A stretch of 64,000 bases of DNA, taken from NCBI GenBank assembly GCA_021292105.1, contig CM037869.1:30753508-30817507 (forward strand), read 5' to 3'. How positions within the stretch are numbered: the stretch's first letter is position 1; the number at the start of each line of letters is the position of its first letter. The position numbers were made by a program, and so were the translations under genes. The notes below the pieces were generated by a model. That model did not search any database and was not told the DNA's origin. It saw only the letters and a list, made by a program, of their open reading frames with translations. The stretch is from Anadara kagoshimensis. Taxonomy: Eukaryota > Mollusca > Bivalvia > Arcoida > Arcidae. Below, in pieces: positions 4,125-59,442 of this stretch.

Positions 4125-7100
4125 AAAAAAGTAAAAAAGTAGAAAAAAATATATCGTTGGATCAAGGAACCCAGTGTAAAATCAGTTGGTCCTAGGCCTT
4201 AAACTCAGGGAATTTGAGCCCCTTTAGAGGCTTTGTGAATCGTAAACACACATTTTAGACCATTTGGTCATCAAGAACCCAAATTTTTTAGAGGGAAAAG
4301 TAGTACATGTCAAATGACAAATGAAGACTGACAGTTAATAAATGATAAGGTTTGACATTATTTGACTGCTATGTTTATATTTTGCAGGTTGGAGGTGAAT
4401 TATGTTTTAATTTTAAAATCAACAATGCTAGAGGTCTACCACAGATTATACAGAAGGTAAAAACTGATTTATTTTATTTGTTTTTGATTAAAACATATTA
4501 AAACTAATTCTTTTGTCAATCAAAGTTATGAGTTAGGATACAGAAACAAGTGTCGTACCACTTATTAATCTGGCCCCAGTTTCACAATCATTCTTTAGCT
4601 TAGATTTTCTTTAACTTAAATTTAGCAAATTTTGGTAATCTCTTTTTTGAACTACTGGTGAATATTTTTGTCAAAACTAAATGCAATGTTTTAATCTAAA
4701 AGTGATCTTAAAAATGACACCTTGAATTTCTCAATGTCTTGAAAATTAACAAAATTATAAAGATTTGAAATTTTGCTAAATCTTAGCTAAGGAATGATTG
4801 TGAAACCAGGGTCTGCTTCCTTGAAGATATAAGATATTAGTTTTTCAAATGAGCCCAATATTTGACTAGCATGTTCAAAGTTAGTAACTAGTGTAATGAA
4901 AAACACAAAATATACTCAATAAAAAGTTGGGGACCATTGTGAAATTTGAAATTAAAATCCAAAAACTGAAAAATTTAATATCCATCTGTAATTTGTACTT
5001 ATTCTTTATTTGTTTCAAATGATGTTATGAAGAAAAAATTTGTGCAATAAATCAAAAAAACTCATTTAAAAACATACCAGAAGTGGAAGATGAAATGATA
5101 TGATTTATTTTCTACAAAATTAAATAATGTTTTTGATGTGGTCCTTAACTTTTTTTTGTTGAGCACATTTTATTATTTGGAAAAATCCCTTTGTTAGATA
5201 AATTTATCTTTGCATGGATCTAAATATAACTCTGTGTTGTTGAGAGTGAAGTGAATTACTAATATATAATAATCATAAATCAAGGTTTTACTGTAGATAA
5301 TTTAATGTCTTATTTCATGTTTCAGAGGTTCTGTAAATAAAATTTTATTTGGATGACCAGTAGAAAAAAAATTACTGAACAAAATGATGGTCATTTATCA
5401 AGGTTTTACTGTAGATAAGTTCTGCCTTATGCTTTGTTTCAGAGTTTCTGTAAATATAAGTTTTATTTGGATGACAAAGAAGAGAAAACTAAAGAAATAG
5501 ACGGTACAATGAACCCAGACTTTAACTACTGTAAACTATTCAAGTTTAAACCAGTAACATCACAGGTGAGCTACACCCCTTACCTTGACCTTTGTGCTCT
5601 CCTTGCCAAATGGCGCAAAAGGCTGCAAATGTATCCTTCCAATTTTGTCTGTCCTTTGTTGCTGCTTTGGCTGTGTCCCAGCTAGAATATCCAACAGAGT
5701 TTCTTCCCTTTTCCATTATTCTCCTCCATGTGGACTCTCCACCCTGTGAAAATAATCTCCTTTACAATATTCACCATTCAAACACCATTTTCTGGAGTTC
5801 ATTATTTGGTTCTGTTTATGTCAGTCTTTTAATTGCATCACTAACAGTTATTTAAAAACCCTTTTATTCACATAAAATTATCAAGGTTTCATAATTGTCA
5901 TTATTTTTTTGTGTACTCGTACATGAAAATAATTACATATTACAAAATCTTGCTCCACCATTAACATTTCTGATGTTTATTATGATGTTTCCATTCCTGG
6001 TTGTCAAAATTGCTATTAACTTCTAATTTTTGAGAAATTCTTTCAAAAAGTGACATATTTTTGCTCATTTTTGAGAAAAATTCTATTGTTTTACATATTT
6101 CTGAAATATGACTATACTATTAATTTTAAATAAATTATCTGGCCACCAAGCATGTGTTATACCTATTGCTTTGCTGACACTTATAATCTACCCAAATAAT
6201 AATTTTACTTTTTATTTCAGATGTCAGAGTACCTACAGAGTGAGGCTGTTGTCATTGAAGTGTGGGGTCGTCAGAAGGATCTTAGCAGTGGTAAAGGTGG
6301 TGGTGCAGTGACAGGTGGCACAGCAGCTAAACAGGCTACAGCTAAGGATAAATCAAACTCTTCCAATAGTGTATGTATAATAACTATTTCCTGTTGGTTA
6401 GTTTTTGGACATTATTTTAATGCGTATGGGAATTGCCACTGAACCATGTGATACCCTTTATTATACCCCCGCTTAAAAAGTGGGGGGTACATAGTGATAG
6501 GGGTGTCCTTCCATGTGTCCATCCGTCCTTCCGTTACACCTTAGGGTACCTATCTATTATCCACAACTCCTCCTAAACCCTTCAATTGATTTTCATGAAA
6601 CTTTCACAGAATCTTTGTGATACAATGTAGATGTGCACCTCCTATTTAAAAATTTGATCCGATAGATTTTTTTTATGTGGGGGTAGCGGGGGGTATTTTT
6701 TGTGAGCTTGTGGCTTACAGTTTTTCTAGTTGTTTTTCTGTAAAGAATTATAATTTCCATTGAATATGAATTCATATATATTGGTTCACGTTTACTCATG
6801 AAAGCAATGTTATTCCAGAAACCTGCGACGTAAATGTTTTCCAAAACGTCCCTCACAAAGGTTAAGGGCTATTGGTTATATGTTAAGCAGCAAACCTCAT
6901 TTGTTTAATATGTTTTATTTGTCTGACACATATTGCCAGTGGGTCATTTCTATTTGAAAATTTTGAATTATGAATTGTGACCCACTGCAGCCAAACTTGT
7001 CATATATCAAAACAAAACCAGTCCATGCCAAATCAAAACCCTGAAGCAAAGCAAAAACTTTGAAAAAATGCAAACCAAGTTGAACAAAATAGCTTCCATT

Positions 7101-15531: not shown

Positions 15532-15965
15532 ACATGTTTCATTAAGTGCAGACCAGATGCATATTTGTTCTGTCCAATTAAAACCAGATACACACATGTT
15601 CCGTCCAATGAAAACTAGATACACACATGTTCCGTCCAATGAAAACCAGATACACACATATTCCGTCCAATGAACACAAGATACACACATGTTCTGTCCA
15701 ATGAAAACTAGATACACACATGTTCCGTCCAATGAAAACCAGATACACACATATTCCGTCCAATGAACACAAGATACACACATGTTCTGTCCAATGAAAA
15801 CTAGATACACACATGTTCCGTCCAATGAAAACCAGATACACACATATTCCGTCCAATGAACACAAGATACACTGTCATATGTTCAATCCAATGAACACCA
15901 GATACACGCATGTTCTGTCCAATGAAATTGAGATACAAACATGTTCTGCCCAATGTACACCAAAT
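15532..15965. repeat. 31-bp minisatellite with 93-bp higher-order period
   Basis: About 14 units of the form ACATGTTCCGTCCAATGAA plus AACCAGATACAC. In the core (about 15590-15870), three variant units (ending CTAGATACAC; CCAGATACAC; CAAGATACAC with ATATTCC) recur in fixed order three times, giving a 93-bp repeat. Because 31 is not a multiple of 3 and several frames lack stops, open frames run across it; they are not genes. Confidence 0.93.
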
Positions 15966-31269: not shown

Positions 31270-32030
31270 AATTCAAGTAAACTCTGATAGACAAATTAAG
31301 GTGGAAGAAATTGCCCAGGTATTAGGTATATCACATGGTAGCGGTTTAGTAAACTTACATGATTGTTTAATAATATTTATGCACAAGCTAACAGATTCCA
31401 AAATCTGTAAGCGATCATCAAATGACAACTAAAGCATTAATGTACAGTGCCTTGTTAAAGTTGTTAAGGTAAGAAAAATATTTTCTGGTGACTGTAGATT
31501 AGATCAAAAACAAACATACTAATCCATGTCCGAATCATAACCCAGAAGCAAAGAAAAAATCTTTTGAACTGACAAGTTAGGTTAGACACATGAACTTCCA
31601 CCAGGGAAATGAGACCTGGTGCTCCGAAAGGATAAGCACCTCCTATTTAGCTAGCTACACATGTGGTAATAAAAATTGTGGAACTATGGGACGTCAAAGA
31701 CATCTAGGGCAATCCTGGACACAGAGACATCAAACTTATCAACAATAATGTGATGACGGCCATAAACTGTTTGAGGGCCTTGATAAAACTAGGCTTGCAA
31801 TATCCCCGAGTCAACAAATTTTTTACAAGCAGACAGATTCACTTTTATGATCCAGAGAATAAAGTTCAAAGTCGTCATAAAGTAGAACCTGGGTCCTCGA
31901 AGCCAAAGAAGTCCAAAACGCAACGACTTGCTGGCAAGGTGATGGTCACATTATTTTGGGACACAAAAGGCGTTATAATGTTGGACTTTTTTCCAAGAGA
32001 AGTACAAGAACTGGAGTGTACAATGCAAAC
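31270..32030 (+). pseudogene. Mariner transposase remnant, split by another repeat
   Basis: The first part (about 31274-31365) reads KVEEIAQVLGISHGS, the DNA-binding helix-turn-helix typical of mariner transposases. The second part (about 31829-32010) reads YDPENKVQS, KPKKSKTQRLAGKVMVTLFW and DTKGVIMLDFFP, which includes the second catalytic-Asp region. Between them, 31503-31829 is a copy of the ATCAAAAACAAACATAC repeat, inserted just after FSGD, the usual first catalytic Asp motif. The C-terminal third is missing. Non-functional. Confidence 0.85.
31503..31829 (+). repeat. ATCAAAAACAAACATAC-family repeat inserted in the mariner remnant
   Basis: Complete-looking copy from GATCAAAAACAAACATACT to about CAAATTTTTTACAAGCAG. 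The interrupted transposase defines both borders to within a few bases. AGATT occurs on both sides (about 31495-31500 and 31832-31836) and could be a short target duplication. No terminal inverted repeats. Confidence 0.8.
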
Positions 32031-34545: not shown

Positions 34546-35343
34546 ATAGACCAGTTAAAAGTTTGACGATTTAACACTAAGTCGACGAAATGAAGTGAAA
34601 GCTCGGCTGCTGCAATGTAGCCGAGATATGGATAACTAGTAGCCTAAAGACTATTAAGGGGTAGCCAAAGACAACTAAGGGGTAGCCAAAGACTACTAAG
34701 GGGTAGCCAAAGACTACTAAGGGGTAGCCTAAAGACTACTAAGGGGTAGCCTAAAGACTACTAAGGGGTAGCCAAAGACTACTAAGGGGTAGCCAAAGAC
34801 TACTAAGGGGTAGCCTAAAGACTACTAAGGGGTAGCCAAAGACTACTAAGGGGTAGCCTAAAGACTACTAAGGGGTAGCCAAAGACTACTAAGGGGTAGC
34901 CAAAGACTACTAAGGGGTAGCCAAAGACTACTAAGGGGTAGCCAAAGACTACTAAGGGGTAGCCTAAAGACTACTAAGGGGTAGCCTAAAGACTACTAAG
35001 GGGTAGCCTAAAGACTACTAAGGGGTAGCCAAAGACAACTAAGGGGTAGCCAAAGACTACTAAGGGGTAGCCAAAGACTACTAAGGGGTAGCCTAAAGAC
35101 TACTAAGGGGTAGCCAAAGACTACTAAGGGGTAGCCTAAAGACTACTAAGGGGTAGCCAAAGACTACTAAGGGGTAGCCAAAGACTACTAAGGGGTAGCC
35201 AAAGACTACTAAGGGGTAGCCTAAAGACTACTAAGGGGTAGCCAGCAGCTGTCGAGATAAAGCTAAGAAGGGGTCTAGATGGTCTGCCGACTCGGCACCA
35301 ATTCATTAGTCAAGTGTATAACATTCGACAGGCCTGTATTGTT
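34546..35343. mobile_element. Palindromic MITE expanded by an internal array
   Basis: The outer arms AGTATAGACCAGTTAAAAG, TTAACACTAAGTCGACGAA (left) and ATTCGACAGGCCTGTATTG (right), plus internal GCCGAGATATGGATA, match the ~200-bp MITE family. The centre is replaced by the array at 34640-35243. Confidence 0.82.
34640..35243 (+). repeat. 21/22-bp satellite-like array, ~28 units
   Basis: Unit AAGACTACTAAGGGGTAGCC plus A (21 bp) or plus TA (22 bp). Length classes and a rarer ACAACT variant are interspersed; the string ACAACT-unit, A, A, TA occurs twice, a hint of higher-order copying. Each unit has a GGGG run on the + strand. Confidence 0.97.
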
Positions 35344-38445: not shown

Positions 38446-41400
38446 GTAAGTGTGATTGTGATTATATCAAAATAACTTAGAATCATTAATTTTTCGTATT
38501 GTCAAAATTTATTTTCAAGTTTATGTACATTCTGGTTTACGTATTTTAATTTCGTGATTCTTTCTTGTTACTTGTTTAAGTGGATCTCGATATCGATCTT
38601 ACTTATTTTAAAATAATTTATTCACTTATTTATAAAATTTAGATATTTCAGAAACATGCCATTATATATTTTAATTTCATGTCTTAACGAAAATGCAATA
38701 AGATATATAACGGCAGCGTTACAACAAGAACTAAATCTTAAACTTTAGTTAAAAATAACAAAACAAAGCTCTAATCGTTTAAACAGATTTAGAAAATAAA
38801 AAAATGTTGCAAAACGGATTACTCAAAGTTAAACATATCTTAAAATAAGATTACCTAAATCAGTAAACATTAGGTGAATATTTGAATTTTTCATTTTGAT
38901 GCATGATGTAGACTAAATGTCATAATAATTATTATATCTTAATTACAGATGAAGTTGATACCTCTATAGACATGGTTGTCCGTGAACTAACAACTGAAGA
39001 AAGAAAAGGTAATTTATTTCAGACATGATTTTGTATCGGACATTTGCAATAAAGTTTCATTTGGAATTTTGGTTCTGGGTTATGATTCGGACATGGATAA
39101 GTATCTTTGTTTTTCATAAATTTGTATCCAGGTATGACGTTTTACGGAGCTCTTCAGGTGAAAAGACTTTATAGTCGGTGACATTGTTAATTTTTAAATA
39201 TGTCATTTGTTGCGATGTCTAATCACGCCTACACGAAAATCGTTGAACATTTACGAAACCTTACAGACCGTAATTTTTTGACTTTCCACTCATGTTTTGC
39301 TTTATAAAAAATTCTTGGTTGTTTTTTTTAAATTGATATTCTTCAAAAATTAAGGTATACCCCTTATGCAAAGCATTTCTTTAACTGGATGTGGTAAAAC
39401 ATATTTTGGTACTTTTGGGTATCTTTTCAACGTCTTGGGAAACAATTTCCAAACACTCCTGTATATCAAAACAGCCGTCTAGTGCTGTACAATAACTGGT
39501 ATGTGTAATGTTTATGTTTATTTTGCTGATTGTTGGTTGTAATGCTTTATTTTAGACTAGACTGATGAACACCCTGAAAAAAGCGTCACAATATTGGTGA
39601 TACGTATGACGTCTTTGTATTTTAAATTACATTTGACGTTTAATGGTTTCATTTTCTTCTTATTGTCAATTTTAATTTTATACTTTGTGGTAGTATAATC
39701 TAGTATAACAGGAGATGCATAATTTTTTGTGCATCCGGCCTCACTTTCCAGTTGGAAATTCACGTTGGGTACTTAATTTCACAGTTTTTAATCTTTCAAT
39801 TTTTCTTGAAATTGTAGTTTGAACATGGAGTGGTATGTTTGTTTTGATTTGTTACTAAATGGTTTATCATTTGAATTAGTATCGTCAACAAAGTTTAAAA
39901 TGAGTCAGATTCGAAACTCTTGTTAGCACACTCCTCCAATTAAACATTGTTTTCAAGCGTTGCATGGGAAAAGGACAATGACCTGGAATTTCCTCAATTT
40001 CCAAACTAAGGAATATCTGCACGTCATTCAGCGGGGTTAATACACAAACATCTTTTGTAAATACAAATTAATAACAAAACATCATGTTCCAGAACACGAT
40101 GTGGAATAAAAATATTCAATCCTGTTTTTAATCATAAACGGGTTGATTAACGAGAAAATAACAAGCTTTGATCACGGTAGTTGACCCTTAAATAAACAAG
40201 TATCAGGTTCCTTTATAGTGTGTTTAGGAAGATAAGACGTTTGGTCATTTAAATCTATTTTTATCTTTTTTATATCAAAAATGGCATAAATTACATAGCA
40301 TTTTTACATACAGTAGTTTTTACAAAAATATAAAAAAAGCATGTTAAAGTCAATGTCTTAAGAAAAAATTACTACTAGTATATTCATTAAAACAAGTATA
40401 CAGATGTTAATATGTGTATTAACAAACATACCTTTTTGGAGACGACATGTTTTATATAATATTTTAATCGTAATACAGTCATAAATGAGATTTATATTGC
40501 CCTGATGTGTTAAAACTATGTAATATTTTATTATTCCTCATTAGAAAAATACGATACTATCTGTAATTTGATTGGATCGTTGGATCATGTGATCAGGGTG
40601 GAGAAAACATCGTGTATCCTCTGAAAACATTATATCCCACCTCTTCGGAACACACCATGACGTCACAATGATATGACGTCATCGATGGAGAATCGGTCAC
40701 GACGTTTTAGCGTTTGCCTCCGATGAGTTCCGATCGTAGAAAAAACAATGAATCGGAGAAGGAATGAAGTTTTCAGGCCGTCTTTTTAAAAATATTTTTC
40801 TTTCTCTCTGTCTATCTTATTACAATGGTTATCTTTCGGTATAATAAACAATTTATTGCCTTTGTTTGAGGGAGATATGAACATTTGTTCACCCTTAACA
40901 AGCCACATTTTCTTCGGGTTTCGCCCTCGGGAAATATGACTTGTTGCGGGTTAACAAATGTTCATATCTCCCTCATTCAAAGGCAATAAATGTATAATAT
41001 ATGTCTTCGCTACTGTATATATCAAAAACAAACATACTAATCCATGTCCGAATCATAATCCAGAAGCAAAGTAAAAACTTTGGAACTGACAAGTTAGGTA
41101 TATGCCAAATTTTGGTTCAAGTGGGAGGTCGTGGATTCGGACCTCGACCGGGATTGCACTCAGCATTACGAAATGAAAGTAACGGATTTTTAGGATTGAA
41201 ACTTAATATGAACGAAGCCCCGTGTCACTGAAGGAGTGGTACGGTAAAGAACCCTGCTGTATAATGTCATCAGCGCAATGCACAAGCAAACTTTTTGCAC
41301 TTTCGTCTATAGTTGGATATGCCGCTACATACCATTACTTAGCTTACCCTCAGCTTAATCCTTACATATAATGTATATAGTAATACATGGTGGAGAAGAT

Positions 41401-44047
41401 GATAATCAAGATACGTGTCTAATTGGGTGAACGTTTAATAACATAATTATATTCTTGGTTTTGTTTTACCTTTTAATTTTAGAATTGAAAGAAATGTTTT
41501 CAAAACATGACGACAATGGTGACAATAGAATTTCTATAAGAGAAGCAAGATCTTTGTTAAAGGCACTGGGTATGAAACCAACTCTAAAAGACATCAGAGA
41601 ATGGATGAGACGGCTGGGTGATAACAATGGTCAGTAGTAGTAGTAGCAGTAAAAACAGTGGTGGTAGAGGAACATGCCCCTTCTCTCTATTTCAATTGCG
41701 CCTCGACAACAGAGTGGTATCAAACATGCGTTTTCAGATTTAAGCACCTCTAATCTCATAGGTTCTAATACGCCCCGGACCAAAAGCTAGTATGAGATGG
41801 TCATTTTTGCATGCGTAAGATCGGTTGTTTTTTCTGGCTTCCTGCAACACCTCTGACATGATCCCCTCGATATGTCAAAGAGTTTTAACTAGGGCGTTTA
41901 TATCTCAATATTCCCAATCCACTATATATATTCACACCTAATCCCGCATACAGTGCAAAGTTTGTATAATTATTCTACGCCAGCAAGAGATAAGCATGCC
42001 AGAGATTAATACCACTGTCTATCTTTAATGTTTGAAGACAACTGTTATAATAAATAACTTATTGCTCTATATTTTTGAAACCTAAAATTCATTTCTTCTT
42101 TTTTAAAATATAAACGAAATTTTATTATCTTTGTAAATCTCCGAGTGTAATTCCTGTTTATGTTTCTTTTTTTTTTTTTTTTTAAATAACTACGTCTCAT
42201 CAACGATATTTCCTACAGATATTGTGTAAGAATTAGCGAATATCTTGAACAAAAATACTCATGAAGCAACTTTTAAAGCTTTGAGGGCTTCCACAAAAAC
42301 CTTATGGGATGATGACATTAACTTCGTGTCTTTTGACGATAGACTATCAGTATAAATTCGGCAAATGTGTTCATTAACTTCCACAAACGCATTACTGAGT
42401 AGTTGAGTTGGGTCTTTTCCACCTTTTACATTATTCAAAATCATTTATAACTTATTTTGGCATTTACAGGTGATGATTATTTATCTTTCAAAGAATTTGA
42501 AGGACTTGTCAGACATCATATATCCACCATGGAGTACGAAGAAGCAATGATGAGAGCGGCGTTCAGAAGGTTTGATTTAAACGGGGATGGTTCAATCTCT
42601 AAAAAGGAAATAGTGGGCATACTTAAACAGACTAATGTACAAAATCCGGAAGAGGAAGCAGATAGACTAATAGAGGAAGCGGATCTGAATGGAGACGGAG
42701 AAATTGATTATAAAGGTGAAACTGTTAATACATTTCAATAACTGTACTGGATTTTTTTAATAAATTTACAAATTGACGTCCAGTGCTAGGGTTTGGATGC
42801 AATGTAGCGGCAAAATACTTCTTTAGGAAATTATACATTTATTATGTTCTATTTTATCATTTTTGTTCATTGTTAATGTGCTTTAAAACTTTTGGCCAAT
42901 ATCAGATATAACAATAACCAATTAACCTCGTGATGTGTTTTTTTTAAATAAAAGAGATCGATTACAATTGGCTTTACTGTACCAAGTGATACATCTTAAT
43001 GTGTGATAAATAATTATTTTCATTGCATCATGAATCGCACAAATTGATATTTTCTCCTACAAACGACCTCATTCTTTAACTGTGCAGCGTTAACGTTTCG
43101 TAAAAAGTAAATAAGGTAATGTGACACGTTAGGGAACCACATATAAAACCGATGATACCAAACCTAAATGATGTCAAAACATGCTACATATTGTCAGGTC
43201 TTTTTTGTTTATTATAATCTAGAATTAAATAGGCAAATAACATTGGCTTTTCCGATTGAATTTTTATTCAAACTATTCATATAGTTGATTTGCAGTCAAT
43301 ACATGCACAATGCACGCGTTTTTGGTTTGTCCTATTATGTAGAAAAAATAAATACTTGTGTTTTGTATACATAAATGTAGTGGTTGTTAAGAGTCAACCA
43401 TATGAACCATAATGGCGATTTTGACCACCCAATTACGGCAAACACAGCTCTAACGAGACCATAATTCAGGAATTTGCTGCTCCTTTGTCCTCAAATAGGG
43501 TATTTTAAGTAAGTAAAACTAACAAAACCAGAAACAATATTTGAAATTAATCCTCACGGCTTATTTTCAAATTTGAAATTCGGTAGTTTTTAATAAATTG
43601 TTGTGATATTATTGACAGAGAAATTACATTTGTTAATATCCAGTACATACGTATCCGTAAGAAAATATCAGCAAGATAGACACCGTAAATAGTCACGGGT
43701 TATATAAATACGAATTTTACGAAATTTCAGACTTGACAAAAGACTGTAAGGATTCATTTTAAATATTCTTTCAGGTTGTCGTAATATGTTATATTTAGAA
43801 TTCTCCATTCTACTGCAAAGAACCATACAATCGCAGGAATGTGGTCGCATAAAGGGTGTGTATACCGTAATTGGATCGTCAAAATGAGGTCAAAAATGTT
43901 TAAAGTAAATGTCAAGCGGAGAGATCATTGTTTTTATCTATACAGTGATGTTATGTCATTTTTGTCATTGATCTCATTAACTAATTTGGTCTTTCTTTCT
44001 TTTCAGAGTTTTGTCAGGTATTATTTGGGTCCGGTAATCAGGAATGA
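38403..44047 (+). CDS. EF-hand protein 2 (calmodulin/troponin-C-like), 5 exons
   Basis: Exons 38403-38445, 38949-39008, 41483-41629, 42470-42715 and 44007-44047 give about 178 residues, all introns phase 1 at the same positions as genes 1 and 3. N-terminus MALIQTFQGKSPKI; exon-2 module VDTSIDMVVREL; EF-hand 1 loop DDNGDNRISIRE; EF-hand 2 loop DNNGDDYLSFKE, split after the third residue; EF-hand 3 loop DLNGDGSISKKE; EF-hand 4 loop DLNGDGEIDYKE; C-terminus FCQVLFGSGNQE. Loops 3 and 4 are textbook. Loops 1 and 2 have Asn or Asp at position 6 instead of Gly, so N-lobe affinity may differ. The start is chosen by match to gene 1 and by the CAATGG context. AATAAA lies at 44059-44064, only 11 bases after the stop. 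Role beyond calcium binding is unknown. Confidence 0.88.
38949..39008 (+). CDS. EF-hand gene 2, exon 2
   Basis: Sixty bases, acceptor TTAATTACAG, donor GTAATT, encoding DEVDTSIDMVVRELTTEERK. Confidence 0.85.
39340..39515 (+). mobile_element. Hammerhead-bearing repeat, decayed copy
   Basis: In intron 2 of EF-hand gene 2. Shares AAATTAAGGTATACCCC, AAACATATTTTGGT, ACAGCCGTCTAGTGCTGT and ATAACTGGTATGTGTAATG with the copies at 45.8 and 51.2 kb. The CTGATGA core and stem II are lost (CTGTATA, then a gap), so it cannot be an active ribozyme. Confidence 0.75.
39728..39855 (-). repeat. ATCAAAAACAAACATAC-family repeat, truncated
   Basis: Right border GTATGTTTGTTTTGAT. Contains CATCCGGCCTCACTTTCCAG and stops there. 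A smaller fragment of the same kind lies at 39066-39112. Confidence 0.7.
40848..40992. mobile_element. Foldback element, ~50-bp arms
   Basis: Left arm TTTATTGCCTTTG, GAGGGAGATATGAACATTTG; right arm CAAATGTTCATATCTCCCTC, CAAAGGCAATAAA. Central spacer TCGGGTTTCGCCCTCGGG is itself palindromic. It resembles the foldback at 62179-62322 in layout. Confidence 0.88.
41023..41100 (+). repeat. ATCAAAAACAAACATAC-family repeat, 5' fragment
   Basis: Begins ATCAAAAACAAACATACTAA and ends TGACAAGTTAGGT, abutting a truncated SINE at 41101. Confidence 0.85.
41101..41335 (+). mobile_element. tRNA-derived SINE, first family, head truncated
   Basis: Enters the family at GTGGGAGGTCGTGGATTCGG and continues GCATTACGAAATGAAAGTAA, AAGAACCCTGCTGTATAATG; the tail is lost beyond CTATAGTTGGATATG. 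Confidence 0.82.
41483..41629 (+). CDS. EF-hand gene 2, exon 3 (EF-hand 1)
   Basis: 147 bases, acceptor TTAATTTTAG. Encodes LKEMFSKHDDNGDNRISI, then REARSLLKALGMKPTLKD and IREWMRRLGDNN. The donor is GTCAGT, a variant also used once in the kinesin gene; it alone keeps phase 1 into exon 4. Confidence 0.85.
42166..42183. repeat. Poly(T) tract
   Basis: Run of T in intron 3 of EF-hand gene 2. Confidence 0.85.
42470..42715 (+). CDS. EF-hand gene 2, exon 4 (EF-hands 2-4)
   Basis: 246 bases, acceptor GCATTTACAG, donor GTGAAA. Encodes DDYLSFKEFEGLVRHHIS, EYEEAMMRAAFRRFDLNGDG and LIEEADLNGDGEIDYK. Confidence 0.92.
44007..44047 (+). CDS. EF-hand gene 2, last exon
   Basis: Acceptor TTCTTTTCAG, encodes EFCQVLFGSGNQE, stop TGA at 44045-44047. 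A longer open frame overlapping it in another phase is a shadow. Confidence 0.82.
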
Positions 44048-45037: not shown

Positions 45038-45306
45038 TACACCCCCCCGCTTAAAAAGTGGGGGTATATAGTGATAGGGGTGTCCGTCCGTCCTTCCGTC
45101 CTTCCGTTACACCTTAGGGTACCTATCTCTTGTCCGCAACTCCTCCTAAACCCTTCAATGGATTTTCATGAAACTTTCACACAATCTTTGTGATATAATG
45201 TAGACGTCCACCTCCTATTTAAAAATTTGATCCGATGGATTTTTTTATGTGGGGGAGCGGGGGGGGGGATTTTTGTGAGCTAGTGGCTCACAGTTTTTTC
45301 TAGTTT
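45038..45306 (+). repeat. Second copy of the ACCCCCGCTTAAAAAG repeat
   Basis: Aligns over its whole length with 6460-6731, same orientation, ending GGCTCACAGTTTTTTCTAGT. It lies between EF-hand genes 2 and 3. Confidence 0.8.
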
Positions 45307-45639
45307 ATTTTAGTGTCACGTATAAAATTACTAAAACTTTAACACGTGAAAATAAAACAATAAAATTTTATACCCGAGCAAATTTTGCCTATTAGGCACT
45401 ACTGTTACAGTTAAAAATATTTATAAAACAGCCCTTAGCCCTTGCCAAAATCCCAAAACGAGAGCAATATTTTTTTTACTAACTTAAGCGTTCATCTTTT
45501 GGAATCTGACCAAGCCTCGAGTGGCAAATATATGACACTATTGAAATGGAACATTATATATATATGTATTGTAGGAAAAAAGTATTTTAGTATGTTATGT
45601 TAAGCACTAATTTCGTATTCTTGTCAGAAATATACTTAA

Positions 45640-45900
45640 TATAATTGTCTAAATTTCCTGCAAGTTAAAATTTGAAATTTCTCAAAAACTAAGGTATACT
45701 CCCTAATTAATGCAAAGTATTTCCTTAGCTTAATTTGATAAAATATATTTTGGTCCTTTGGGTAGGTTTTCAACATCTTTAAAATAATTCTGGTTTCATA
45801 TGGGCCCAAGCACTACTGATGAGGAATTGTATTCCGAAACGGCCGTCTAGTTCTGTAAAATTAAAACTGGTATAATATGTAATCATACATTGTATTTCAT
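45640..45900 (+). mobile_element. Hammerhead-bearing repeat, best-preserved core
   Basis: About 260 bp from TTGTCTAAATTTCCTGCAAG to AAAACTGGTATAATATGTAA. The same ordered blocks recur at 51030-51275 (both sense) and in part at 39340-39515 and 55296-55394. No protein-coding capacity. The ribozyme lies near the 3' end. Confidence 0.82.
45809..45854 (+). ncRNA. Type I hammerhead ribozyme, intact core
   Basis: Segments in order: stem I AGCACTA (45809-45815); core CTGATGA (45816-45822); stem II GGAAT with loop TGT and ATTCC (45823-45835); GAA (45836-45838); stem III ACGG pairing with CCGT and no loop (45839-45846); cleavage base C after GT (45847); stem I 3' strand TAGTTCT (one mismatch to AGCACTA). 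All invariant hammerhead core bases are present and predicted cleavage follows C45847. The very short stem III is typical of animal retroelement hammerheads, which are known to cut best as dimers. Confidence 0.8.
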
Positions 45901-49247: not shown

Positions 49248-52200
49248 GTAAGCCTTTATAATGATGTATCATTATTGTTTAAGTTATGAAAGATCATTCA
49301 TAATTTTTAAATAATAACATGTACAGTACAGACCTGTCAAGAGTTTAACACTGGGATAACGAAATGGGATCGAAGTTCGACTGCCCAGTGGCCGGGATAT
49401 ATGGATAGCTTGTGACCAAATAGCTGCGGAGAGAAATGTAACAGCTGAGAAGGAACCGAGATAAACTGTCCTTTCTGTACTAATTAACTCTTATACTTTC
49501 GACAGGCCTGAACCGTATTAGTATACATGTAGCATGAACAGTACTATGTGGCTTATTTTCATTCAAATCTAAATTTTTAGAATGGTAATTTTTTATCTAC
49601 GAATTCAAAATCATGTATAATATTATAACAATACGTTGTGTCATTTTATTAACTTAAACTCATTTAGCATACAATACAGACCTATCGAATGTTTAACGCT
49701 AAGCCAACAATAAAAGTCGAAACTTAGATGCCACGTGGCCAAAATGATGGTAGCTAAAGGCAAAAAAGGCTACCGAGAGATAGATGGCAGTTGCCAATAG
49801 TTATCGCTAACGAGTGACCGAGATGATCTACCGATTGGGCTCTAATTTGTAAGCTTAGAGTCAAACTTTCGACAGGCATGTACTGTAGTTTATTGAAATG
49901 TGCATTTCCAAACAATAGGCTATTTCATACCTCATATTAATTGAGTATTAGGGTACAATAAAGTAATCTATAAATACGGTTCTGGTTTGGTAGATCTATA
50001 TGTGATCGGAAATAAGAGGCACTTTGATAATTATAAGCTTGAATGACTTCCATTATGAACAATCATATATCCTTTGTATTATAAATTGTTCAATTCAATT
50101 AACGGCAATCATCTGATCATAAAAATGTTATACGATCGATGTATAAGTATTTGTCGTCCAACCCGTGTTGTACATGTATATATACAGTACAGTCATGTCG
50201 AAAATTTAACCACTGCGGAAGCTCAGTTGGTAGAGTGTTCACTCCGTAAGTTGGAGGTTGTGGGTTCGATCCCCGGCCGGTTCTGTTCCAAGACTTGAAA
50301 GTGGGTAGTGGCAGTTCTTATGCCAAGCACTCAGCATTACGAAATGAAATCACGGTTCTTTCGGATGGGAAGGTCCCGTGTGACGGTGGGCTTGGCACGC
50401 TATATAATATAAACTATATAAATAATAAACTGCTGTATAATGCCACCTGCGCAACTCACTGGCATAATTTCTTGACTGTGACGTTAAACATCATTACTCA
50501 ACTAAACTCTATCGAAAATACTAAACTAACGAAATAGTGTCGATTCGACAGCTTGACTTCTCGTTAGTTATATGTCTGCTATTTATCTCTCGGCAGCTAA
50601 AATTTGGCCACCAGCTATTCATATCTCAGCCACTTGGCAGCCGAATTTCGGATACTTTTCGTTAGCTTAATGTTAAACTTTCGACCAGTCTGTACTGTAC
50701 ATGCCAGTATATTAGAATATGAAGCATGCTTTCAGATTTACTAACATAACATAACATATCGGTACATAAATTAAACACCCAACTGCAATCGATAGCTTTA
50801 AATTTCTCTCTTTTACTGAAACAAAGGATAATAATGAACATCCGATAGAATGGAATCAATAGCAATTATGAATGACATAATCAAAAAGTTGTTTAAGGTT
50901 TTATAACAAAAGACAGAATGCGCTACAACAAAAGAATAACCTGGTATCCATTATATTGTTGAGGTGCTTTAACAGCAATGTTTATGACATGTTTTTGACA
51001 TGTTTGTCTAAAGTCCATGGTTATTACTATTGTCTAAATTTGCTGCTAGTTAAATTTTAAAAAAATCCTCAGAAACTAAGGTATGCTCTCTCATGCAAAA
51101 TGGTTCCTTGGCTAAATATAGTAAATATATTTTGCTCATTTGGGTTTCTTTTCGACATCTTGAAAAAAAAGTGTTTGGTTTGGTCCAAGCACTACTGATG
51201 AGGAATTGTGTTCCGAAACGATTGTCTAGAGCTGTAAAATTAAAAATGGTATAATATGTGATTCGGTATGACATAACAAGACTGATGTCTGCATCTTTTC
51301 TTCTATTATATAGTATTGTATAAACTACATGTATATGCCTAACGTGATGACTTCACTTTATTATTGTCAACTTTCCTTTTCTATACAGCAATATACCTGC
51401 TTCTCTTGATGATGGTGTATTTTTTTACAATTAATACCCTAGGGTAGAGCTAGTTTTCACTAAGCTAACTGTATAAAACGAAGCAAGCTGCTTATAAATA
51501 AGATGTTGACCCATGGATTGCAAGCCTAGGCTTATCAGGACCATAATCACAATATTGTTCTTAAGTATGATGTCTCTGTGTCAAGAAATACCCTGGATAT
51601 ATTTGACGTCCCGTAGTTCCATATTTACTCTCGAATGTGATTGCATACGTTGCGAATGTAAAGAGAAAAACTGAAGGTGCTAGTCCTTCCGGAGCATCCG
51701 ATCGCGACCTAATTTTCTTTGTGAAAGTTCAAGAGTTTATTATAGTTTGTCTGTTTGGGATTGTGATTATGTTTGTTTTTGATAGTATTATAAATGACGT
51801 TTTTCGCTAAATTATTACTTACACCAAAATTTAATACAATCGACGTACTGGTTGATGAAGTTTGTGACTGGTATATTATTTACTTATTGTTTGGATATGC
51901 GAAAGTGCCAGTTGCAAGTCTTTGGTTCACATTTGAGGAAAAGGGTGTTTTAAAAATAATTTTGAGCTTAGTATTTGTAGTAAGAATTCAAGCATTGTTT
52001 TTTTTCTATCAGCTTCTTGTGATTATTTCTTATATAACTTGGTGTCCAAAACTTTTCATACGAGTATGAACGTTTGTCCTCTTGAAACACGTGAACTTGC
52101 CATAGCTGCTGGAGTCTCAAATTCAAATTTCTAAATTCAATGTAATCATTCATATACAGCACGTTTTCTGATGTTAGCATACTACAAAATCTAAATGCTT

Positions 52201-54133: not shown

Positions 54134-56882
54134 CCATAACCCTTCCTATTTTCAATCATTGTAAAAGGCGTTTAACCATCAGTTCTATACATGATACAGA
54201 GGTAAAAGTTACTCGGATAAATGTAAGCCAAGTCGATCTCAAACACATCTGGTTTTTGATTTTGCCCCTGTAGCGTTTTTCCTGTGCCCCTAATGGGCGC
54301 CTAAATACTCATTATAAAATTATCTTAATATTTCTTTACTTACAAATTTGACATGTTAAGAAAGCGGGCTGAAGATGTGGAACCATGAATTTATAATCAT
54401 TGCGGTAGCTCAGTTGGTAGAGTGCTCACTCCGTGAGTGGGAGGTCGTGGTTCGAACCTCCACCGGGTCTCACCCAAGACTTGAAAGTTAGTAGTAATTG
54501 TTCTTTCGCCAAGCTCTCGACATTACGGAATGAAAGGAACGGTTCTTTCGGGTGGGAACTTAAAATAAGCGAGGTCCCGTGTCACGATGGGCTTGACACG
54601 ATAAAGAACCCTGATGTATAATGACATCAGCGCAATGCACGGGTAACATTTCTGCACCTTCGTCTATAGCTGGTGACGTCTCGATATAAGTGAAATATTT
54701 TTGACTGGGACGTTAAACACCATTACTCACTCACTCACTCCCTCCCATGAATTTAGGTTTTTGTGTAGGCCTTATGTATCTGCCGTTAATAAACTCAAAA
54801 GTCACCAAGATAAAATGTAATGGTTTCTTCATTATTGTTTTGCAGAGGTAAAAAGAAGATTTGCGAAGTATGATGAGAATGGCGATGGAACAATTAATTT
54901 TGGTGAAGCTAGAAGACATTTTTCTAAAATTATGTCAGAATTGACGCGTATTGATCCTCACATTAGTGACGTCACAGACCTAGACCAAGATTGTGAGTAT
55001 TATCCCCTTTTTAGAGGCAACCAATATCAGAATCGAGAAAGAAACATCACAATGGGAAATAAATGAGTTGAGTATTGAATTTTTATGACCCAGTCAACAT
55101 TTTTTTCACTTACACTGAAGGGGCAAATCCATGCCATGAGAAAACTATCAATTTTTGGGAAGCGTTTTTTTTTTTTTTTTTTTTTTTTTTTTGAAAACTG
55201 GCAAATTAAGTTTAAAACTTTTAACTTCCACAACGGAAGTGAGGTAGTTTATTCCAAAGTTTAATCATCTGCTGACTGCCACGTATCACTAATAACATAT
55301 TATACCAGTTTTAATTTTGAAGCACTAGACGGCCGTTTCGGAACACAATTCCTCAACAGTAGTGCTTGGACTAAAAGTATGAAACCAAAACCTACATGTA
55401 CATGATCAGGCCTTCAGTATCAAATATGACTTGAATATACTACTATACAATTACTGAAAACGCACAATTGTAGTATCATCCGATTATTGCACAAATCAAC
55501 AAATAAATGTATTATAATTTCATTACATTATCTATCGGTATAAAGTACAGATGTGTCGAAAGTTTAACAATAAATTACATGCAGCTACCGAAATAATACC
55601 GAACCGGCATCTCATCTTGGGCCTTTTTACCTATATCACGACAACTTTTTCTTAATATCTGCACCTATAGCTAGCTATCTATCCATATCTCGGTCATTCA
55701 ATAGCAGAGGTTCGACTTCTTTTCATTAGCTCAGTGTTAACTTTCAACAAGTCTGCATTGTAATAAAAATATCAAACAGACTGACTAAGACTATTTATAC
55801 CCCCCGCAAACTAGTTTGAGAGGGATATATAGGAATTATCGAGTCTGTCCGCCTGTGCATGTAAAATCTTGTCCGGGTAGTATCTCATAGCTGCTTTTGA
55901 CGGCTGTCATTAAACTTCTAATGAATAATCTTCATGGTCCAAATGTGTTATGACACAAGGTCATATTTTAAGGTCAAGGTCGACTGAAAACATTAAATGA
56001 TGGGCCGGTGGGGTATTTGGCTCTCAAGAGACAGTTCTAGTTTAACTTTATTTTCAGCTGACCGTTCTATATCCTATAAGGAGTTTGAGTACATATACCG
56101 CCGGTATCTGTCAACTATAGAGTACAAACAGGCCGAGATGAGGGCTGCGTTCAGAATGTTTGATCTGGATGGCAATGGGTACATAACAAAGGATGAACTT
56201 AAAGTTATTTTATGTGGGAAAGGGCAGGACAAATTTGGTGATGAGGAGGCAGACGGGTTGATAGAAGAAGCCGATTTGAACAACGATGGAAAAATTGACT
56301 ACATAGGTGAATTAGTTATTCGATTTATTTAATATTATTTCTGTGTTCTGCATATTTATCCCCCTTTGATAGTATATTCACACTAAAGTGCCACTCGTCT
56401 ATTTACTGGCAAAACATTTTACAAAAGAACTATGGCTTGGTCCTACGATTTAAGCGTGTCAGTTATTGGTTGGGTGAATGGTGTGGTACGTCACACCAAC
56501 TTTTTGCAGGTCTTCATGACGAGATTTTTCTTCTTTTTTTTAAACTTTTTTAATCTAAGCCCATATTCATGTAACGCGCAAGTTTGGTGTTTTTGATCTG
56601 TTTGTATTAGTGAACATTTCTGATAGTTTTAGATTGTCGGGTTGTATAGTTTCTATTTTACAAACAACACATCGTTCATTGTAATAAAAATTATAAATCA
56701 ATTCTATGATTCACCTTTTATGCAAGTAGACCTGCTGTATTTTCATCCTTTGATTAATTACTTGTAATCTAATGTACTTTTATACTTGTATGCTTACAGA
56801 ATTTTGTTATGCACTATTTGGAGAGCCACCACCACCTCAAGAAAAGACAACTGCAAAAAAGACGAAGGCGAAGAAAAAATGA
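49208..56882 (+). CDS. EF-hand protein 3 (calmodulin/troponin-C-like) with Pro/Lys tail, 5 exons
   Basis: Exons 49208-49247, 53064-53123, 54846-54992, 56058-56306 and 56800-56882 give about 192 residues, all introns phase 1. N-terminus MDNDELVPNEECI, unlike the MAL start of its paralogues; exon-2 module IDTSKDMVVREL; EF-hand 1 loop DENGDGTINFGE; EF-hand 2 loop DQDSDRSISYKE, split by intron 3; EF-hand 3 loop DLDGNGYITKDE; EF-hand 4 loop DLNNDGKIDYIE; C-terminus FCYALFGEPPPPQEK then TTAKKTKAKKK. Loop 1 is canonical here, while loop 2 has Arg at position 6. Loop 4 carries Ile before its terminal Glu. The lysine-rich tail is unique in the array and could bind acidic partners (inference). Poly(A) signal AATAAA at 57276-57281. 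Subfamily not recognised. Confidence 0.88.
49322..49513. mobile_element. Palindromic MITE in intron 1 of EF-hand gene 3
   Basis: CAGTACAGACCTGTCAAGAG, AACACTGGGATAACGAAATG on the left and ACTTTCGACAGGCCTGAACC on the right. Confidence 0.78.
49677..49885. mobile_element. Palindromic MITE, second copy in intron 1 of gene 3
   Basis: Left AATACAGACCTATCGAATG, TTTAACGCTAAGCCAACAA; right CTTTCGACAGGCATGTACTG followed by TA. Confidence 0.78.
50185..50697. mobile_element. Palindromic MITE interrupted by a SINE
   Basis: Left end CAGTACAGTCATGTCG and right end CAGTCTGTACTG are both flanked by TA. The SINE at 50210-50509 sits inside the left arm, so the MITE is older. Confidence 0.85.
50210..50509 (+). 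mobile_element. tRNA-derived SINE nested in a MITE
   Basis: Head CCACTGCGGAAGCTCAGTTG, box B GGGTTCGATCCCC, tail GACGTTAAACATCATTACTC. Flanking near-repeat TCGAAAATTTAA / TCGAAAATACTAA is its probable target duplication within the MITE arm. Confidence 0.9.
51030..51275 (+). mobile_element. Hammerhead-bearing repeat in intron 1 of EF-hand gene 3
   Basis: Sense orientation to the host gene. Shares TGTCTAAATTTGCTGCTAG, AACTAAGGTATGCTC, TAAATATATTTTGC, TTTTCGACATCTTGA and TAAAAATGGTATAATATGTG with the 45.8-kb copy. A reverse-strand open frame across it is fortuitous. Confidence 0.82.
51188..51233 (+). ncRNA. Type I hammerhead ribozyme, intact core, intronic
   Basis: Stem I AGCACTA; core CTGATGA (51195-51201); stem II GGAAT, loop TGT, GTTCC; GAA (51215-51217); stem III ACGA with TTGT, allowing one G-U pair; cleavage C at 51226; stem I 3' strand TAGAGCT (one mismatch). 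The core is complete; stems I and III are slightly weaker than consensus. Confidence 0.77.
51480..51783 (-). repeat. ATCAAAAACAAACATAC-family repeat, near full length
   Basis: Minus-strand copy ending ATGTTTGTTTTTGAT; includes TATTTGACGTCCCGTAGTTC and GATGTCTCTGTGTCAAG. Confidence 0.8.
52207..52547 (+). mobile_element. tRNA-derived SINE, first family, in intron 1 of gene 3
   Basis: Head GAAACCTCAGATGGTACACT, box B GGTTCGAACCCC, tail CACCATTACTCAACTCAACT. Two open frames across it are not genes. Confidence 0.87.
52707..52935 (+). repeat. ATCAAAAACAAACATAC-family repeat, 3' truncated
   Basis: ATCAAAAATAAACATACAAA, TCACCAGGGAAGTGAGACCG, AAGGAACATGAATTTATGGG; stops near ATATCCAGGGAAATA. Confidence 0.82.
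53064..53123 (+). CDS. EF-hand gene 3, exon 2
   Basis: Sixty bases, acceptor TACTTGCAG, donor GTAAGT, encoding AEIDTSKDMVVRELKKFEHA. Confidence 0.88.
53834..54085 (-). repeat. ACCCCC...CTAGTTTG repeat, minus copy
   Basis: Left CTAGAACTGCCTTTTGAGAG, right TACCCCCTCAAACTAGTTTG then AGGGTATA. Inside: ACCTTGGTTCAAGGTCATGA. Same family as 55797-56040 and 63441-63689. It ends beside a (GT)n run. Confidence 0.8.
54088..54131. repeat. (GT)n microsatellite
   Basis: About 22 GT units; open frames of Val-Cys and Thr-His repeats on the two strands are artefacts. Confidence 0.96.
54397..54744 (+). mobile_element. tRNA-derived SINE, first family, with 11-bp TSD
   Basis: Head GCGGTAGCTCAGTTGGTAG, box B GGTTCGAACC, body CCAAGACTTGAAAGTTAGTA, tail GACGTTAAACACCATTACTC then a TCAC run. 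Perfect 11-bp duplication CCATGAATTTA at 54383-54393 and 54745-54755, 90 bp before exon 3 of gene 3. Confidence 0.93.
54846..54992 (+). CDS. EF-hand gene 3, exon 3 (EF-hand 1)
   Basis: 147 bases, acceptor GTTTTGCAG, donor GTGAGT. Encodes VKRRFAKYDENGDGTINF, GEARRHFSKIMSELTR and IDPHISDVTDLDQD. The linker after EF-hand 1 lacks the WM motif shared by genes 1 and 2. Confidence 0.85.
55168..55191. repeat. Poly(T) tract
   Basis: Run of T in intron 3 of EF-hand gene 3. Confidence 0.95.
55296..55394 (-). mobile_element. Hammerhead-bearing repeat, truncated copy
   Basis: In intron 3 of EF-hand gene 3, antisense to it. The minus strand reads GTTTCATACTTTTAGTCC, the ribozyme, then AAATTAAAACTGGTATAATA. 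The ~150 bp upstream seen in other copies is missing. Confidence 0.8.
55321..55366 (-). ncRNA. Type I hammerhead ribozyme with one core substitution
   Basis: On the minus strand: stem I AGCACTA with a perfect TAGTGCT partner, stem II GGAAT/GTTCC, GAA, stem III ACGG/CCGT, cleavage C. The core reads CTGTTGA instead of CTGATGA, a change at an invariant adenine, so activity is expected to be lost or strongly reduced. Confidence 0.75.
55548..55763. mobile_element. Palindromic MITE in intron 3 of gene 3
   Basis: Left AGTACAGATGTGTCGAAAG, right GTGTTAACTTTCAACAAGTC. Confidence 0.75.
55797..56040 (+). repeat. ACCCCC...CTAGTTTG repeat abutting exon 4 of gene 3
   Basis: Begins ATACCCCCCGCAAACTAGT, contains TGACACAAGGTCATATTTTA, ends CTCAAGAGACAGTTCTAG. 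Only 17 bases separate its end from the exon, so the branch point probably lies in element sequence. Confidence 0.82.
56058..56306 (+). CDS. EF-hand gene 3, exon 4 (EF-hands 2-4)
   Basis: 249 bases, acceptor TTATTTTCAG, donor GTGAAT. Encodes DRSISYKEFEYIYRRY, EMRAAFRMFDLDGNGYITK and LIEEADLNNDGKIDYI. One codon longer than in its paralogues (GQDKFGDEEAD insertion). A mobile element ends 17 bp before the exon. Confidence 0.9.
56800..56882 (+). CDS. EF-hand gene 3, last exon
   Basis: Acceptor TGCTTACAG, encodes EFCYALFGEPPPPQEK and TTAKKTKAKKK, stop TGA at 56880-56882. Longer than in genes 1 and 2 because of the Pro/Lys tail. Confidence 0.85.
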
Positions 56883-58096: not shown

Positions 58097-59442
58097 TCAC
58101 GTTTCACGAAGTATACTTAGGAAAAAGTTCTTTCCGTAGTATGATTCCTAAGTTCTTTCCTAAGTATGACTTAGGAATAAAAATTTTTTTTCTAAGTCCG
58201 TTTCACGAAACCGCCCTAAGTTTAAGGATGTTCGTAACTCATTCCTAAATTTAAGACAGGTAGATAGCTGACTTAGGTAAGAACTTGACATGGCGGCTGC
58301 CTATATTTATATGCTACGACAACGACAGTTTCGACTAGAGCGTGATTTTAGGGATAGAAACAACCCATTTGATTACATGGATGATGAAGACATCATTTGA
58401 AGATATAGACTATTCCGCCCCGTTATTCTAGAACTTTGTGAACTATTGAACTATGATCTTGAAAGGCCAACAATGCGTTCACACTCTCTACCAGTGTCAC
58501 TGAAAATTTTAACCGACCTTAGATTTTTTGCAAGTGTTAGTTTCTTAAATATACATGGGATGAGTAAATACAGTGTGTTCAGAATAGGGACCGAATGATA
58601 CAATTACTCAATGACATAAAAATTACATAACTAACTAATTATATAATTAATGCCAAGAACTGAAATTGAAATAAATACAGTTATGCAAGGGTTTTATCAT
58701 ATAGCTAACTTTCCAAATGCATAAGGTGCAGTTGATGGGACCCACATTAGAATCATGGCTCCCAAAAATGATGAGCATTTGTTTGTAAATAGAAAGAACT
58801 TCCATTCTATTTATATTCAATCAATGTTTGATTCAAAATTAAAATTTACAAATGTTGTTTCAAAATAGCCCGGATGGACCTATGATTCCTTTATATGGGC
58901 ACATTCGTCTTTGTGACACTATTTTGAAAATGGACGAATTAATCGCGGTTGGTTACTAGGCGACAGTGAACATCCTCTGAGACCCATTTTAATAATCACC
59001 GGTATTGAATCCAACAACTAGAAAAGAAAAAAAGTATCTATATCAATTGAGTCTTATAAAACCACCAAAGCACCTAACCATGTCAAAGTCTTTTAATTAC
59101 TCAGTTATTTGAATTTAATAAATGCGAGGTATGTAGTTGGTAGAAAAAACTTGAAAAATCCTACTTGATCATATTCCAACATATTGGCCAATTTGAAATA
59201 CAGTATTGAAGTTTGAAATATCAATCTGTGTGCAATAAATATTGCATGTAAGGATAACGATTGTCTATTGGCCGCAAATTAAAATTTTCCAAAAGTTTTT
59301 CCTAACTGACGACAGACATAAGACACGTTCGTGAAACGCAAGAGTTTCAACTTACGCATTTCCTAACTCTTTCCTGAGTTAAAACTTAGGAATGAACCTA
59401 GTAACGAACTTAGTAACGAACTTTAGAAACATACGTGAAACG
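58097..59442 (+). mobile_element. Decayed Harbinger-type DNA transposon, possibly nested
   Basis: The sequence CGTTTCACGAA occurs near 58097 and 58200; its inverse TTCGTGAAACG / ACGTGAAACGC occurs near 59325 and 59437. The inner pair encloses the transposase remnant. The outer flanks are rich in CTTAGGAA / TTCCTAAG motifs. Either one Harbinger inserted in a related MITE, or the termini were duplicated. Confidence 0.8.
58290..58990 (+). pseudogene. HARBI1-like transposase pseudogene
   Basis: Starts MAAAYIYMLRQRQFRLERDF and DYMDDEDII, stop, then RYRLFRPVILELCELL, RPTMRSHSLPVSLKILTDLR, later GAVDGTHIRIMAPKND, NFHSIYIQSMFDSKLKFTNV, PGWTYDSFIWAHSS and GWLLGDSEHPL. These are the ordered motifs of Harbinger DDE transposases: GAVDGTHI carries the first Asp and TYDSFIW the second. 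At least five in-frame stops and a gap before the catalytic domain make it non-functional. The domain after GDSEHPL, with the final acidic residue, is missing. Confidence 0.9.

Follow-up and report, generated by a model that had tools for sequence, protein, structure and literature searches.

The locus considered here raises two questions: whether the sequence at positions 45809 to 45854 is a hammerhead ribozyme, and what kind of element carries it. In this study, we examined the window, that is, the whole stretch of 64,000 nucleotides from Anadara kagoshimensis, and searched the same assembly (1.115 Gb, 36 contigs) for relatives of the carrier. We conclude, with a probability of about 0.75, that the carrier of the motif is a small non-LTR retrozyme without coding capacity, present here as a diverged copy that is truncated at its 5' side, and with a proposed life cycle that includes a probable Penelope enzyme.

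Direct reading of the window showed that all conserved elements of a type I hammerhead are present at 45809-45854 on the + strand, letter for letter. The 5' strand of stem I (45809-45815, +) is followed by the conserved core CTGATGA (45816-45822, +), a 5-bp stem II with the loop TGT (45823-45827/45831-45835, together 45823..45835, +), GAA (45836-45838, +), and a 4-bp stem III without a loop, ACGGCCGT, which is formed by ACGG and CCGT (45839-45846, +). From the hammerhead fold, the predicted cleavage base is the C of GTC at 45847 (+), with the cut 3' of this C, and the 3' strand of stem I lies at 45848-45854 (+). Stem I consists of six pairs and one C-T mismatch. The first-pass annotation had described these elements in this order, including the one mismatch in stem I, and each was found at its bases. 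The motif has what defines a type I hammerhead, namely CUGANGA...GAA...NUH and three stems, with stem I open. Stem III is self-complementary, and both the sequence and the computed energies allow 8 bp between two copies of it.

A scan of both strands of the window for the core, stem II, GAA, stem III, and a stem I of at least 4 bp returned 45809-45854 as the single site, and 1 of 200 windows simulated with a first-order Markov model contained any site. Rfam RF00163 (Hammerhead_1) aligned over its full length with the motif and scored 23.0 bits in a search of 71 bases (E 5.5e-4). The gathering score of this model is 34, a curated cut-off for large searches that stands outside the chemical definition of a hammerhead. 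The covariance-model check proposed in the first-pass annotation gave no match at this score, the best values being 23.0 bits for the window copy and 28.1 bits for an intact genomic unit (E 1.2e-5 in a short stretch, all pairs standard). The whole-window Rfam search likewise gave nothing at the gathering score, no hammerhead was listed at E<=10 for a 501-base stretch, and none at E<=1 for four arrays within a 22-kb set. The hammerhead had also been called intact; this holds for the presence of its elements but is overstated, since stem I is mismatched and the predicted minimum of the monomer is another fold, not the hammerhead. For the decayed window copies, the predicted minimum of the dimer also differs from a double hammerhead. 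In all, the sequence at 45809-45854 has a genuine hammerhead fold, from which cleavage is predicted.

We then located the repeat in the window. Blastn with a genomic unit, together with nhmmer, gave four copies, designated c45, c51, c55, and c39. The copy that carries the motif, c45 (45601-45883, +), is 5'-truncated and corresponds to unit positions 62-339 at 90.9% identity (blastn); the carrier, previously put at about 260 bp, is instead 283 bp of a 339-bp unit. Its 3' tail (45848-45883, +) extends from the cut site that is predicted to the terminus common to the family, with 33 nt to ATGT and then AAT, so that c45 reads ...TATAATATGT at 33 nt past the predicted cut. The more diverged c51 (51029-51262, +; nhmmer 51022-51268) covers unit positions 101-339 at 80.5% identity, and its hammerhead at 51188-51233 (+; Rfam 17 bits, E 0.05) keeps the core with one stem I mismatch and has a stem III, ACGATTGT, with one G-U pair and one changed A-U pair. 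In the strongly 5'-truncated c55 (55292-55390, -; unit 241-339, 92.9% identity), the core of the hammerhead (55321-55366, -) is altered to CTGTTGA and the stems are paired. The fourth copy, c39 (39330-39502, +; 79.6% and 86.5% identity over two pieces), is missing the core and the 5' half of stem II. The motif had been said to recur in three more copies; the repeat does occur three more times, but a full core is found only at 51188-51233. A model built from three window copies gave c39 as the fourth (E 0.003) and no convincing fifth (next E 0.6). Covariation among the three copies was too thin to count (164 of 500 shuffles equally good). Between c45 and c51, the hammerhead and tail were more alike (68 of 75 identical) than the upstream part (123 of 162; p 0.008); this pattern was absent from the comparison with c39 and was dropped as a signal. 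Taken together, the window copies look like relics.

The surroundings of the copies were also annotated. Above the cut-off, the Pfam scan of the window gave EF-hand exons and two transposase fragments, with no reverse transcriptase or GIY-YIG domain in the frames scanned (two minus frames of 1-15 kb lay outside the scan). The EF-hand (calmodulin-like) stretches are at 28645-28815, 42547-42714, and 56135-56302 (+), and an open stretch at 54821-55063 (+) is EF-hand-like by eye; if the EF-hand stretches form one gene, c45 and c51 would be sense in an intron. The fragments of DNA transposons, DDE_Tnp_4 and Transposase_1, are at 58731-58988 (+) and 31852-32001 (+). Minisatellites lie at 34639-35244 (21-bp unit, 28 copies, 96% matches) and 15552-15962 (31/93-bp units). 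A separate dispersed repeat is present at 45201-45311, upstream of c45 and outside it, and at 6628-6737 (87% identical). Rfam matches to group II D5, miRNA, and snoRNA models were all sub-threshold, and several fell in simple repeats.

Exact matches to the 26-nt core numbered 2,358 + 2,301 = 4,659 in the genome, and the reversed-pattern control gave 0. Several loci hold head-to-tail arrays; Tandem Repeats Finder, applied to three of them, gave a 339-bp period with 98-99% matches. In the five arrays that were read, every full unit has kept its hammerhead. Among the first 100 listed core matches, which come from one contig, 13 grouped into 5 clusters, each on a single strand, in which neighbours were 325-357 nt or about twice 339 nt apart; 0.17 neighbour pairs were expected. 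The 339-bp unit has a GC content of 0.327, and its longest open stretch over six frames is 43 aa. The earlier proposals of a retrozyme-like and of a non-coding carrier are supported by these arrays and by this lack of coding capacity. Core patterns had no match in a viral contig collection or in a genome contig collection, a result that is uninformative here.

To describe the ends of the elements, we used a sample of loci (L001-L078) made up of the 20 best matches to the window copy, array regions, and about half of the first 100 core matches, the last all from one contig. Repeats of one locus (L002-L008, L032-L034, L043), edge-cut elements, and identical elements with identical flanks were excluded. 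The sample yielded 91 elements, 55 of which had at least 90% identity to the ruler unit (blastn with one genomic unit). All of them contain the hammerhead region, so the sample describes only insertions with a hammerhead. Flanks or ends are shared by L049/L051, by L072/L073, and probably by L052/L055, which may be duplications of one insertion, so that the independent elements are slightly fewer than 55. Thirty-seven of the 55 elements fall short of a full unit in length, 15 extend over more than one, and the longest reaches 6.8 units.

The 3' end lies at unit position 337-339 in 52 of these 55 elements (the others end at 330, 330, and 289). The 5' ends are spread over 43 different positions in the range 1-293, in a distribution that is not quite uniform (KS p 0.046). 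The common 3' end is 36 nt past the predicted cut, with 33 nt to ATGT. Exact GGTATAATATGT is found at the end in 42 of the 52 elements, with AAT next in 36 of those 42; the remaining 10 have base changes at the end, and AAT follows in 9 of them by eye. One 3' end combined with scattered 5' ends points to reverse transcription that begins at a single site and proceeds to varying extents, as in established target-primed mechanisms. Since the 3' end lies beyond the predicted cut, the template would not be a self-cut linear monomer and would be either a closed circle or an uncut multimer. The fixed 3' end fits copying from a single starting point, plausibly round an RNA circle.

Two elements, L024 and L071, end in a doubled AATATGT (...ATATGTAATATGT), reminiscent of slippage or re-initiation of reverse transcription at the start site. 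No poly-A or short-repeat tail was evident by eye at 43 junctions. Flush target-site duplications were not clear by eye at any of 21 insertions, two of which have identical flanks, and those of at least 6 nt occurred in 4 of 51 elements against 5.5% in re-paired flanks, which is no excess. The first-pass annotation had allowed for a MITE-like carrier as well, and this proposal found no support: there is no signal of terminal inverted repeats and no excess of target-site duplications. Terminal inverted matches of the four window copies were 9, 9, 9, and 10 of 12 bases, and random window segments reach 9 in 153 of 500 cases and 10 in 25 of 500. In addition, the 5' ends are not fixed.

The arrays were compared unit by unit. 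Divergence was 1.65% within arrays (33 pairs, 5 arrays) and 3.81% between arrays (138 pairs), and the two ranges overlap (within-array maximum 3.4%, between-array minimum 2.1%). Each of the five arrays has 1 to 8 private states common to all its full units. In line with the general proposal of the retrozyme authors, we take this likeness within arrays as a sign of repeated rounds of copying on a single circle; homogenisation at a later stage might produce a similar pattern.

As for the working of the ribozyme, a stem III without a loop suggests that it would act as a dimer. For two 50-nt copies of the intact unit, the predicted minimum is exactly the double hammerhead with a shared 8-bp stem III (-36.7 kcal/mol), whereas the best predicted fold of a single copy has -13.4 kcal/mol against -8.9 kcal/mol for the hammerhead. 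Higher activity as dimers has been reported for the axolotl and newt hammerheads (PMC7229834), dimer activity has been suggested for the minimal hammerheads of Penelope-like elements (PMC7761336), and palindromic stem III sequences have been noted in other repeat-type hammerheads (PMC3088659). With a fixed-layout pattern, 55 hammerheads were parsed where the sampled elements hold 62 tails. CTGATGA, GAA, and C17 are kept in 53 of these 55, a figure inflated by the choice of part of the sample by its core. The search pattern included neither stem I nor the second strand of stem III; all seven stem I pairs are kept in 46 of 55 and the stem III ACGGCCGT in 49 of 55.

We next examined the GIY-YIG elements of the same genome as a possible source of enzyme. 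At least 50 GIY-YIG matches were found among the 150 of 248 candidates scored. One of them falls within a 762-aa open frame that contains YLDD. This frame matched nothing at E<=1 in a PDB sequence search, and a crude search for the GIY-YIG motif found nothing in it, so the endonuclease call is that of Pfam. We take these elements to be Penelope-like from the GIY-YIG domain, YLDD, and the hammerhead together with the general features of the family. Sixteen stretches located at GIY-YIG matches or downstream of them were inspected. In 9 of the 16, a hammerhead follows the endonuclease; its stem III is loopless and self-complementary (AGCGCT or AGTACT), and its stem I has at least 6 bp. The same search gave 0 of 16 on the antisense strand and 0 in 8,000 control sequences. 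The nine stretches form three sequence groups, several being inverted pairs or close relatives, and are not nine independent cases. A tenth stretch, L093, passed a looser test only; the six that failed include L087 and L088, which are relatives with a changed core. Close inverted pairs of GIY-YIG matches were seen at C3:1658447/1660515, C3:2308968/2311040, C15:59520667/59523173, C6:15379015/15384018, and C15:54986423/54989902, and several of the copies fetched run into (TA)n tracts.

One of the hammerhead-bearing families, that of L081, was compared with the retrozyme at its end. For 40 of 790 candidates scored, the query itself and two flank-only rows were set aside, which left 37 informative rows. 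Thirty of the 37 end exactly 33 nt past the predicted cut, at ...AAAATGT; five end 2-4 nt earlier, one ends 10 nt earlier, and one runs on. In a second GIY-YIG family, that of L087, 13 of 45 rows end 42-43 nt past the cut and 30 run into TA repeats. Over the last ten bases, the retrozyme end (...ATATGT) and that of the L081 family agree at 8 of 10, a level reached by 16 of 26,320 arbitrary register pairs, in a comparison of few families with ends chosen by the analyst. This apparent match of the two ends, 33 nt past the cut in ATGT, is suggestive only. The L081 hammerhead itself had no Rfam match at E<=1. Upstream of L081 (stretch L096), no open frame longer than 107 aa was present, and no intact helper of the L081 family was seen.

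Based on these observations, we propose the following life cycle. Head-to-tail genomic copies would be transcribed, and two hammerheads of one transcript would pair via stem III (ACGGCCGU) and be cut as a dimer after GUC. The 339-nt monomer would then be circularised by an RNA ligase of the host. A reverse transcriptase supplied in trans would begin copying at one set position, 33-36 nt past the cut, and make from less than one to several turns round the circle; the resulting insertions would have the same 3' end, scattered 5' ends, and a length of up to 7 units. The enzyme would probably come from a Penelope-like element of the same genome. The steps up to and including reverse transcription are those of the published retrozyme model, and the fixed start site and the source of the enzyme are read from the genome. 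The motif, the arrays, the element ends in the sample, the greater similarity within arrays than between them, and the hammerhead design and end point common to the retrozyme and one GIY-YIG family were observed in the sequence; the cutting, the circles, and the enzyme are what we infer. The more specific proposal holds that animal retrozymes are moved by Penelope-like enzymes and that the retrozyme copies the end signal of Penelope, a dimeric loopless hammerhead followed by a 33-nt tail that ends in ATGT, with reverse transcription starting there on the circle and arrays arising directly from several turns. This proposal is tentative, and we put it at somewhat less than an even chance.

The window itself, which holds only singletons with a common 3' end, would also suit the view that the repeats are 5'-truncated fragments of a Penelope terminal region, with no independent small element behind them. 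Minimal hammerheads in dispersed form are frequent among animals, and a number of them lie in the pseudo-LTRs of Penelope-like elements (PMC7761336); here, moreover, the hammerhead design and the end point are the same as in GIY-YIG elements of the genome. However, such fragments do not account for 339-bp head-to-tail arrays of a unit with such short open stretches, comparison of the unit with the 16 Penelope 3' regions (plus strand, E<=1) gave no match beyond the hammerhead and the end, and the window frames scanned hold no reverse transcriptase or GIY-YIG domain. We consider this view very improbable, and its form as a piece of a Penelope terminal repeat, first suggested by the window singletons, was given up on finding the 339-bp genomic arrays. 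A Penelope-like element proper was rejected on the lack of an open frame for reverse transcriptase or GIY-YIG (longest open stretch of the unit 43 aa), and an LTR retrozyme of the plant type was rejected on the hammerhead, which is type I and not type III, and on the repeats, which are whole tandem units. Head-to-tail arrays and homogeneity within arrays are typical of DNA-level processes, and both are present here. An origin of the arrays by unequal crossing-over, rolling-circle, or extrachromosomal DNA, with the hammerhead as a passenger, is nevertheless hardly credible: it does not predict one 3' end (52 of 55) with scattered 5' ends, and 37 of the 55 elements are singletons shorter than one unit.

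Movement of the retrozyme by a LINE-type enzyme, or copying from linear multimeric RNA and not from circles, is a possibility that we regard as unlikely on balance. Most LINE insertions would show a poly-A or short-repeat tail and a target-site duplication, whereas the 43 junctions had no such tail by eye and there was no signal of such duplications; in addition, the end point and the hammerhead match those of a GIY-YIG family. Uncut multimers would also hold sequence beyond the cut, yet the units are on average closer to one another within an array than to those of other arrays. Both LINEs and Penelope-like elements have been put forward as potential partners by the authors of the retrozyme study (PMC7229834). 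Finally, the hammerhead could be a vestige that is inactive in the living animal. The window copies are decayed, the scores lie under the Rfam gathering score, and one Penelope-like element inserts in vitro without need of its ribozyme (PMC11167929). However, full stem I pairing in 46 of 55 and a palindromic stem III in 49 of 55, mostly outside the search pattern, together with the double hammerhead predicted for the dimer of the intact unit, make a vestige distinctly improbable.

Non-LTR retrozymes are tandem repeats with type I hammerheads, and their RNA circles have been shown in coral, mussel, and salamander (Cervera and de la Pena 2020, PMC7229834). The present family resembles the metazoan non-LTR retrozymes in its small, low-GC unit with a type I hammerhead and in its head-to-tail repeats and thousands of copies (PMC7229834). 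It differs from the canonical retrozyme hammerhead in being minimal, of the Penelope kind, with a loopless stem III and no internal loop in stem I; the retrozyme authors assigned minimal hammerheads to Penelope and Terminon elements (PMC7229834). With loop II UGU, a stem I without an internal loop, and a loopless stem III, the canonical layout of loop I-loop II contacts is absent. We treat these contacts as usual rather than defining for metazoan retrozymes, because the published mussel retrozymes, of about 350-390 bp, lack most of them too (PMC7229834). Retrozyme circles have been described as highly self-paired; the 339-nt circle predicted here is 65% paired, which is no more than in shuffles (z -0.48, 30 of 100 shuffles as low). 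The fixed 3' end documented here is a further difference, in that no description of one was found in the consulted part of PMC7229834. Nor was a fixed 3' end of animal retrozymes reported in the titles and abstracts searched, a set that did not cover the 2014 and 2017 Penelope hammerhead papers or supplements.

The comparison with Penelope-like elements bears on the enzyme. The retrozyme authors regarded Penelope-like elements as strong candidates for the helper, since type I hammerheads and tandem copies are found in both and the two co-exist in the genomes that were analysed (PMC7229834), and a 2020 review stated that no motif identifies the partner machinery that moves animal retrozymes (PMC7761336). 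A constant 3' terminus whose distance to the predicted cut is the same in the retrozyme and in one Penelope-like family would be a lead to this helper. As in the present family, the minimal hammerhead of Penelope-like elements is thought to act as a dimer (PMC7761336, PMC6155905); in contrast to these elements, the retrozyme is non-coding, 339 bp long, and found in pure tandem arrays. The lizard Penelope-like element PAc has a 30-40 bp 'tail' between two internal adjacent start sites of reverse transcription (PMC11167929), and this start-site-defined tail may be seen as a parallel, by analogy, to the fixed end of the retrozyme described here. The newt and axolotl satellite hammerheads share a weak stem III, higher activity as dimers, and tandem repeats of 330-350 bp (PMC7229834). 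The axolotl motifs, likened here by description, differ in their loop I-loop II contacts and in a palindromic tetraloop on a stem III of one or two pairs (PMC7229834). The 2020 review already proposed that circular RNA gives rise to cDNA of more than one unit (PMC7761336). What is added here is a signature readable in genomes, consisting of a fixed 3' end, scattered 5' ends, fractional unit numbers, and array-private variants. This signature makes the proposal of copying from circle to cDNA testable in any assembly, and with it the question of how retrozymes move can be addressed computationally in assembled genomes.
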